From assembly GCF_032854445.1 (NCBI RefSeq), contig NC_088295.1:59441249-59505248 (forward strand): 64,000 nt of DNA, written 5' to 3'. The notes beneath the pieces were generated by a model. That model was given only the letters and a program-made list of their open reading frames with translations. It was not told where the DNA came from and did no database searches. This document shows, piece by piece, positions 25,501 through 31,278 of the stretch (the first letter of the stretch is position 1; each line of letters starts with the position of its first letter). The position numbers and the translations under genes are program-made. This DNA is from Liolophura sinensis. Lineage: Eukaryota; Mollusca; Polyplacophora; Chitonida; Chitonidae.

Positions 25501-28500
25501 TAAACCGATAGGAATTAATGCATTGATCACAAAAGACATGTAAATTAGCAGATTTACCGAATCTTATACAATAAGCTGATAATTCCATTAAATTCAGTAA
25601 CTGTAGATCAACATCTGTAACCATATAGGCCCTGTAATTCCTGGAGATTATCCTGCTAATTATAGAACCATCAATAACTTATGTGATTTCCACAGAAACT
25701 TTATTATAATATATGTACGTTTTTTTTCTGATTTGTTCATGCGATTCCAAGATCAAGACGTCAGCCAGCCCTTTCTTTGTGTTATTGGTCTGCTTATTCG
25801 CCAACAGGCTTCAATGTTCAAAACATTTATTCATTTTAATTTCAACCAAAAACCACAAACAGAAGTACACTTACAGGTGTTGTCGGCAGATCTACGCGAG
25901 CTTTGACTTGATTAAGTCTTTATTAAAACATGTGTCCTGGGTCTTCGCCTGTGACAGCCTCGCGAGAGCGCTTGTGACTAGGCCTGACCAAGCCAGACAG
26001 CTCTAATCTCCTGTCACAACACAGAGCAGCCCTCACGGTGTGGGTACATACATTGGGCCTTTGAAGCCCCACAGTTGTGCCTCCATCTATATTCTACCTC
26101 CGCACACACACACACACACACACACAGACAGACATCTGTTTAACATGTTATTGTAAGTCTGGATGTAATCCTTTATAATTTTGTCTTGAACAATAATTAA
26201 TGTACACTGACCAGTTTTAGTCAACTATAAAGCATATCTGAATGCGAGAAGATATATGGATTGCATGTTATAACAGCAGTTAACTCTAGAGAGTCTCAAA
26301 AACATTTGGGGCTTCTGTGGCTCAGTTGGTTAGCGCGCTTGCACGGGGTAATGACCCAGGAGTCTCTCACCAATGCGGCCGCTGTGAGTTCAAGTCCAGC
26401 TCATGCTTCCTCTTGGGCCGTACATGGGAAGGTCTGTCAGCAACCTGCAGATGGTTGTGGGTTACCCCGGGCTCTGCTCGGTTTCCTCCCACCATAATGC
26501 TGGCCGCCATCATATAAGTGCAATATTCTAGAGTATGGCGTAAAACACCAATCAAATAAATAAAAAAATAAATGTTTAACATTTCATTGTAAGTCTAGAT
26601 GTAATCTTTTATAATTTTTGTCTTGTAAGAAATATACTTAATTTACAATGACCAGTTTGGTCAACTATAAAGCATATCAGAACACAAGAAGATATATATA
26701 TTGCATGTTATAACAGTAGTTAACTCTAGAGTCTCCAAAATATTTTTGGTAAATTATGAAATTACAGTGAATACTGATAGATATGAGGATGTTACTGACA
26801 GTAATGTATGTGTATTACCTGTTCATCGGAGTCCTGAGCTTCACTAAGACAAGGATAGGTGATCTAGGGATGACCAGGAAATGAACTGGAGCTACAGGAT
26901 TCACATCACGGAACGCCACACACTGGAAATATATAATGTATAACCTGTGAAATTAACTGGGGCCAAAGAATTTACATCACGGAACGCCACACACTGGAAA
27001 TATATAATGTATAACCTGTGAAATTAACTGGGGCCAAAGAATTTACATCACGGAACGCCACACACTGGAAATATATAATGTATAACCTGTGAAATTAACT
27101 GGGGCCAAAGAATTCATATAACGGAACGCCACACACTGGAAATATAAAATGTATAACCTGTGAAATTAACTGGGGCCAAAGAATTCATATAACGGAACGC
27201 CACACACTGGAAATATAAAATGTATAACCTGTGAAATTAACTGGGGCCAAAGAATTCATATAACGGAACGCCACACACTGGAAATATATAATGTATAACC
27301 TGTGAAATTAACTGGGGCCAAAGAATTCACATTACGGAACGCCACACACTGGAAATATAAAATGTATAACCTGTGAAATTAACTGGGGCCAAAGAATTCA
27401 TATAACGGAACGCCACACACTGGAAATATAAAATGTATAACCTGTGAAATTAACTGGGGCCAAAGAATTCATATAACGGAACGCCACACACTGGAAATAT
27501 AAAATGTATAACCTGTGAAATTAACTGGGGCCAAAGAATTCATATAACGGAACGCCACACACTGGAAATATATAATGTATAACCTGTGAAATTAACTGGG
27601 GCCAAAGAATTCATATAACGGAACGCCACACACTGGAAATATAAAATGTATAACCTGTGAAATTAACTGGGGCCAAAGAATTCATATAACGGAACGCCAC
27701 ACACTGGAAATATAAAATGTATAACCTGTGAAATTAACTGGGGCCAAAGAATTCATATAACGGAACGCCACACACTGGAAATATATAATGTATAACCTGT
27801 GAAATTAACTGGGGCCAAAGAATTCACATTACGGAACGCCACACACTGGAAATATAAAATGTATAACCTGTGAAATTAACTGGGGCCAAAGAATTCATAT
27901 AACGGAACGCCACACACTGGAAATATAAAATGTATAACCTGTGAAATTAACTGGGCCAAAGAATTCATATAACGGAACGCCACACACTGGAAATATAAAA
28001 TGTATAACCTGTGAAATTAACTGGGGCCAAAGAATTCATATAACGGAACGCCACACACTGGAAATATATAATGTATAACCTGTGAAATTAACTGGGGCCA
28101 AAGAATTCACATTACGGATCGCCACACACTGGAAATATAAAATGTATAACCTGTGAAATTAACTGGGGCCAAAGAATTCACATTACGGAACGCCACACAC
28201 TGGAAATATAAAATGTATAACCTGTGAAATTAACTGGGGCCAAAGAATTCATATAACGGAACGCCACACACTGGAAATATAAAATGTATAACCTGTGAAA
28301 TTAACTGGGGCCAAAGAATTCATATAACGGAACGTCACACACTGGAAATATAAAATGTATAACCTGTGAAATTAACTGGGGCCAAAGAATTCATATAACG
28401 GAACGCCACACACTGGAAATATAAAATGTATAACCTGTGAAATTAACTGGGGCCAAAGAATTCATATAACGGAACGCCACACACTGGAAATATAAAATGT

Positions 28501-31278: not shown

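Follow-up and report, generated by a model that had tools for sequence, protein, structure and literature searches.

A 71-bp satellite stands directly against an exon of a HINT gene in a 64,000-nucleotide stretch of Liolophura sinensis DNA (here, the window), and its units repeat the acceptor of that exon. How could such an array arise, and which acceptor would splicing then use? One part of the answer is plain: the satellite monomer is a 3′ splice junction captured from a HINT gene. For its history, sequence comparison very probably points to a minisatellite of the type called a mirage in lancelets, which would stem from an early duplication of the junction and have been amplified later at the window's locus, C1. 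Dozens of near-identical acceptors at one exon let exon definition be weighed against local signals in a clean natural test of how the spliceosome chooses.

The junction array and its host gene

The array occupies positions 26923-29963 on the minus strand. Cut at each acceptor on that strand, it gives 43 tandem units; 40 have exactly 71 nt, and the other three have 70, 67 and 64 nt. TRF finds a period of 71, 43.5 copies and 97% matches over 26878-29962. A first, sequence-only reading had described about 43 tandem 71-bp units, each made of the end of a HINT intron and the first 45 nt of the next exon, and both the number and the composition are borne out by splitting at the acceptor. On the minus strand, a unit consists of 45 nt homologous to the exon 2 start (beginning with TGTGTGGCGTTCCG) and 26 nt of intron end, ACAGG...TTTCCAG (ACAGGTTATACATT(A/T)TATATTTCCAG). 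The pyrimidine-rich tract ascribed to the unit is present, but only modest (GTTATACATTATATATTTCCAG). All 43 array acceptors are CAG, and TTTCCAG is found in 42 of them.

The array adjoins the real exon 2, which begins at 26922, next to unit 1, and the authentic intron-exon boundary is the end member of the repeat series, as the sequence-only reading had said of the exon at 26819-26922. The first 45 nt of exon 2 are identical to units 1 and 2 at 39/45 positions, the figure that had been counted by eye for the nearest unit; over all 43 units, the identity ranges from 31/45 (the truncated outermost unit) to 39/45. Alignment of unit and exon had been named as the check by which the homology might fail, and the 39/45 compares with 25/45 for the best unrelated match in the window. 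On both strands of the 64 kb, the best ungapped matches outside the array are 33 (at the array edge), 27, 27 and then 25, and the two 27/45 matches are two relics within the same intron.

Four exons of the host gene were recognised on the minus strand, numbered from the first one recognised, with the search covering that exon and the region downstream. Exon 1 (31278-31141, 138 nt) ends in IIYEDNQ and is bounded by the acceptor TTTAAACAG and the donor CAG/GTCAGA. Exon 2 (26922-26819, 104 nt) contributes 20 residues and has the donor CAG/GTAATA, exon 3 (24423-24351; 24 residues recognised) encodes LLGHLL, and exon 4 (22535-22444) encodes VINNG...HLHVHV with the HIT motif HLHVHV and the stop codon. 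With an X standing for the frame break, the joined peptide matches Pfam HIT at E=1.5e-28; among solved structures it is closest to human HINT2 (E=2.4e-52), with HINT1 behind. The HINT assignment of the sequence-only reading holds in that this is a HIT domain gene, but the gene is more exactly HINT2-like and its exon 2 is frame-broken, which that reading missed. The break lies at 26850-26860, and the C6 paralog is without it. The phases of the other exons demand 105 nt for exon 2, and the one missing nucleotide breaks the gene in this assembly: no intact frame was recovered, a stop follows 36 codons past exon 1, and the HIT motif is lost. Therefore, the gene may not be working, or may be decaying.

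Two side observations concern this gene family. A HINT1-like gene at C2:27088082-27088700 has apparent frame breaks at its exon 2/3 joint and inside its last exon. In addition, a 24-bp array (AATCTTCCTTGAGGAAGGAGGACC) lies in the last HINT2 intron (window 22661-22811), ~125 nt upstream of exon 4, with no visible exon link.

Relics, the C6 paralog and the growth of the array

Beyond the array, intron 1 holds older traces on the same strand. Relic A (30002-30048, exon-base position 30035) is a decayed junction copy with 39/71 identities to the exon locus, and relic B (30260-30326, exon-base position 30319) is a decayed unit with 43/71 identities to the unit; the background maximum for 71-nt matches is 34 over 59,461 positions, and 0/300 shuffles reached the alignment score of either relic. 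Both are weak in a unit profile search (E=0.24 for A, 0.0089 for B). They are exactly 284 = 4 × 71 nt apart, and at 30106, 30177 and 30248 between them no decayed unit rises above background. Relic A has a homologous copy in C6, and relic B a partly homologous C6 stretch.

A 24-bp array of 19.2 copies (TRF; 30343-30800, minus strand) follows, with 18 acceptor-like CCAG sites, 16 of which read TTTCTCCAG/TGTGT. Kinship of this array to the 71-bp unit by direct similarity was tried and rejected: 53/3000 shuffles did as well, but 1/18 controls (9 other arrays on two strands) was equally good (p=0.017). Some positions of the array reach 36/71 identities to the unit, against the background maximum of 34, and these share one 10-nt stretch. 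What links the array to the junction series is the matching position in C6, which shows a single corresponding copy, itself not established as a junction copy.

In the species' own genome, the unit has at least 45 matches, and those listed are the 43 units, exon 2 and C6. Unit loci were found at C1 and C6 only among the candidates scored, which is not the distribution of a dispersed satellite. The C6 locus is a shortened copy of the gene, comprising a damaged exon 1, an intron 1 of ~690 nt, an exon 2 bearing a 7-nt deletion of its own, and some of intron 2; over 30 kb, tblastn gave no convincing match to exon 3 or 4. Ten blocks of 75-90% identity connect C6 and C1 over these same parts, a count that omits the 72% matches to 24-mers and the matches of repeated units. 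The blocks are colinear, save one intron 2 stretch that is present twice on C1. By eye, the two copies of that stretch lie at ~26150-26290 and ~26580-26740, flank a SINE copy and match the same C6 stretch.

C6 is a paralog and no allele, and one 71-nt unit precedes its exon 2, versus 43 on C1. The outermost C1 unit aligns to the outer edge of this C6 unit. Upstream of the C6 unit are three further acceptor-like CAG/TG sites, 90, 72 and 59 nt apart, the first of which is the counterpart of relic A (a sixth C6 CAG/TG, at 14526, was excluded as a copy). The C1 exon and the consensus unit of C1 differ at eleven columns, three of them adjacent at the unit joint and possibly one event; the C6 unit carries the unit state at 9/11 columns, and the C6 exon carries the exon state at 9/11. 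Therefore, the junction was duplicated and its copy diverged before the C1/C6 duplication, and it follows that C1 expanded, or C6 contracted, later. By parsimony, the simplest history is that both C1 arrays expanded late, with contraction at C6 as a possibility. What is new here is a truncated, colinear paralog with one unit in the same genome as a 43-unit array. If the late C1 expansion is true, C1 and C6 form a natural before-and-after pair for one captured junction. Loci of 1 and 43 units, together with the decayed older copies, allow array growth to be ordered in time and its cost for splicing to be measured.

The units themselves bear marks of their growth. Mean divergence among the 40 full units is 2.1%, and identical stretches as long as 498 nt return at a spacing of ~18 units, which fits a putative unequal exchange of several units at once. 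Units 1 and 2 (26923-27064) retain the exon state GATGT, which is absent from all other units; this, with the low mean difference elsewhere, is concerted evolution with an exempt edge. Between the exon locus and unit 1, the 46 nt round the junction are identical and the next 25 nt differ at 6 positions (Fisher p 0.0012). The identity at the junction may reflect either the exemption of the edge or an exchange that took place recently and had its breakpoint within the exon. Where two HINT residues are conserved among solved relatives, the exon encodes P and H, and unit 1 and the consensus encode S and N. We infer from this that the exon is the source, constrained after its copies were freed.

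Taken as a history, an early tandem duplication would have copied the 3′ end of intron 1 and the start of exon 2 (45 nt). By the time that exons 1 and 2 were duplicated to C6 as part of a segment, the exon and the copy closest to it would already have differed. Later, unequal exchange and slippage may have raised the single C1 unit to 43, blocks of several units being copied together, while the exon-side edge probably escaped homogenisation. In this account, the sequence relations are shown and the direction is given by parsimony.

Two other histories were weighed. A long ancestral array might have lost all but one unit on C6, since tandem arrays shrink easily, and the prior divergence of unit and exon would suit this as well. 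We consider it rather unlikely: the C1 units are 2.1% apart, against a ~20% difference between C1 and C6 in the aligned blocks, and therefore the present C1 array appears young, though homogenisation could mask an old one. An assembly artefact, whether a collapsed or an over-extended repeat, appears highly improbable. Tandem arrays are hard to assemble and the copy number may be wrong, but the units contain ordered variants and indels, the matching relics in C6 speak for a real history, and the existence of the array does not depend on its exact length.

Acceptor choice and the state of the gene

Splice sites were scored with approximate weight matrices. With these, 31 of the 43 array acceptors score 6.91 versus 4.59 for the true site, 11 equal the true site and one is lower, so that 42/43 are at least as strong as the real acceptor. 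The earlier claim that splicing must pick the true acceptor from dozens of rivals holds in principle on these scores, and local acceptor signals alone would, in principle, be unable to single out the true site. Other AGs in intron 1, some of them inside units, outscore both the true and the array junctions by the same matrix, and therefore acceptor scores do not decide the choice. The donors differ: the true exon 2 donor scores 6.27, versus 4.72 for the best array GT (approximate matrix). We infer that the acceptor would be chosen by exon definition. Should splicing of the gene persist, exon 1 would most likely be joined to the true exon 2, as the last copy alone appears to be followed by a good donor at exon distance.

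Splicing to an array acceptor would cost the product its HIT motif. When exon 2 is extended to any of the 43, the motif is lost in 43/43 cases, and in the five cases inspected the stop precedes the exon 2 frame break. As a rejected candidate, the unit was also read as a 49-nt pseudo-exon (CACAG/GTTATA); the motif is kept in 0/43, and exon 2 is frame-broken anyway. The case for a donor-based choice is weakened, as even normal splicing of the gene as assembled yields a truncated product.

The broken frame may indicate a decaying gene copy, which leads to a reading that is compatible with a mirage origin and to which we give slightly less than an even chance. On this view, the HINT2-like copy on C1 would be a pseudogene or a null allele; with splicing no longer of consequence, nothing would have held back the growth of the array, and no choice among acceptors would ever have been needed. 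The one-nt deficit in exon 2, with its premature stop and lost motif, speaks for such decay, as does the second, clearly damaged copy on C6. The assembly also contains five single-exon HSP70 copies that read open over 638-669 codons; therefore, indel errors are not rife, though one error here is still possible. On the other side, exons 1, 3 and 4 show no damage, their splice sites are usable and HLHVHV is present, and exon 2 has retained P and H since the unit branched away, where the units lost both. The 8 candidates scored yielded no further HINT2-like locus beyond C1, C6 and the HINT1-like gene on C2. The break could also stem from an assembly error of a single base or from one defective allele; stops occur in 12/49 HSP70-family matches, for which introns or pseudogenes could be the cause, and the C2 HINT1-like gene likewise reads as frame-broken. 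A different role would fall to the array if it acted as a length-dependent decoy, altering HINT2 output through equal acceptors that give premature stops. The 42/43 acceptor scores and the loss of the motif from all 43 acceptors would allow this, and in human ABCA7, splicing is indeed altered by a VNTR at a junction (PMC5954066). We nevertheless regard it as quite unlikely, as the array donors are weaker than the real one and lancelet mirages are reported to leave splicing undisturbed (PMC3087553, PMC3902484). It would be a long shot to combine the two, such that array expansion cut HINT2-like splicing below need and the frame was then lost, a satellite-driven decay of the gene from its own splice site.

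Junction arrays in other genomes and at other exons

The sequence-only reading held that a junction captured as a satellite monomer is rarely described. This does not stand, since the same architecture is reported for the lancelet mirages, in the parts of the two papers available (PMC3087553, PMC3902484). Tandem intron-exon boundary arrays in the lancelet Adh3 and globin genes were given the name there (PMC3087553), and PGBD5 and TnC have been likened to them (PMC3902484); in the available text, the name is found for lancelets only. As in the HINT2-like array, the unit of the BflGb6 and Adh3 mirages joins an intron 3′ end to the beginning of the exon that follows, many units keep their splice signals, and concerted evolution exempts the edge units (PMC3087553). 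The Adh3 units of 10-72 bp are comparable to the 71 bp here, whereas globin BflGb6 has 3 and 6 units in two haplotypes against 43 here; the one-unit paralog also sets the HINT2-like array apart from the lancelet cases, as far as the available passages describe them (PMC3087553). PGBD5 has similar exon/intron boundary repeats of 60 and 108 bp with copy numbers that vary between assemblies, but in 2-7 copies that coincide with both 5′ and 3′ splice sites (PMC3902484). According to the same passages, regular splicing is reported or inferred to be undisturbed by the lancelet mirages (PMC3087553, PMC3902484), and it has been suggested that new introns and exons can come from junction arrays (PMC3087553). 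The HINT2-like array thus belongs to a known kind, is longer than the lancelet cases cited here, and has a one-unit paralog besides.

Two human systems are related in part, as described in the available text. The ABCA7 intron 18 VNTR, with alleles of about 12 to 427 units, also abuts an exon and contains its splice site; unlike the HINT2-like unit, its 25-bp unit starts with the donor GT and is intronic, with no exon coding sequence, and an effect of length on splicing has been demonstrated there (PMC5954066). Boundary tandem repeats in human paralogs are likewise linked to novel introns, but they average four 30-bp units and half of them lie within coding exons (PMC2812944).

Exon edges elsewhere in the genome were compared with random pieces. 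For the HSP70 family, 40 of 49 matches were used (five single-exon copies on C10 and four others were left out), and tandem copies stand at 2/80 edges, both in one C6 gene. Random 100-mers of the same HSP70 loci have tandem copies in 11/400 cases, 5 of these in or at the same two arrays, and arrays are thus not enriched at exon edges, where edges are the ends of profile matches rather than proven splice sites and the edge test had no distance limit against 500 nt for the control. Since random pieces meet arrays as often, junctions need not be special targets; a minisatellite-rich genome will sometimes catch them. Of eight HINT2 edges, one is positive, on the acceptor side of exon 2 only, and no tandem copies were found at 6 C2 HINT1 edges and 2 DENN-exon edges. 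The C6 HSP70-family gene, which we take to be mortalin-like, carries a donor-type array (C6:74663449-74663571 and following) that repeats the exon end NKLLGQFQL and the GTGAGT donor, with a TRF period of 51 and 7.7 copies, five of which fit a strict donor pattern. The same gene has a 20-bp array (AGGTGAATCAGCACACTGTC, 7.2 copies, C6:74659520-74659662) that starts at the donor side of an exon, with AG/GT inside its units. A separate HSP70 match, at C1:28756494-28757417, has a reported open frame of 42745 aa, perhaps an N run or a long repeat.

Searches with the unit core gave 0 matches in the viral and genome collections, and Rfam (at gathering scores) and ARAGORN found nothing. A SINE-like family with the tail GGCGTAAAACACCAATCAAATAAATAA has 15 copies within 3 mismatches in the 64 kb, including one at 26537-26563; this tail, which had no match in the genome or viral collections, presumably recalls mollusc-type SINE tails. 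At 62168-62800, a 210-aa open frame matches the uDENN and DENN domains. A 63-bp array on the minus strand (8582-9089; repeat QKIFTIIQPHNPTGEKLGNYW) stays open in frame because 63 is a multiple of 3, and forms a 164-aa open frame.
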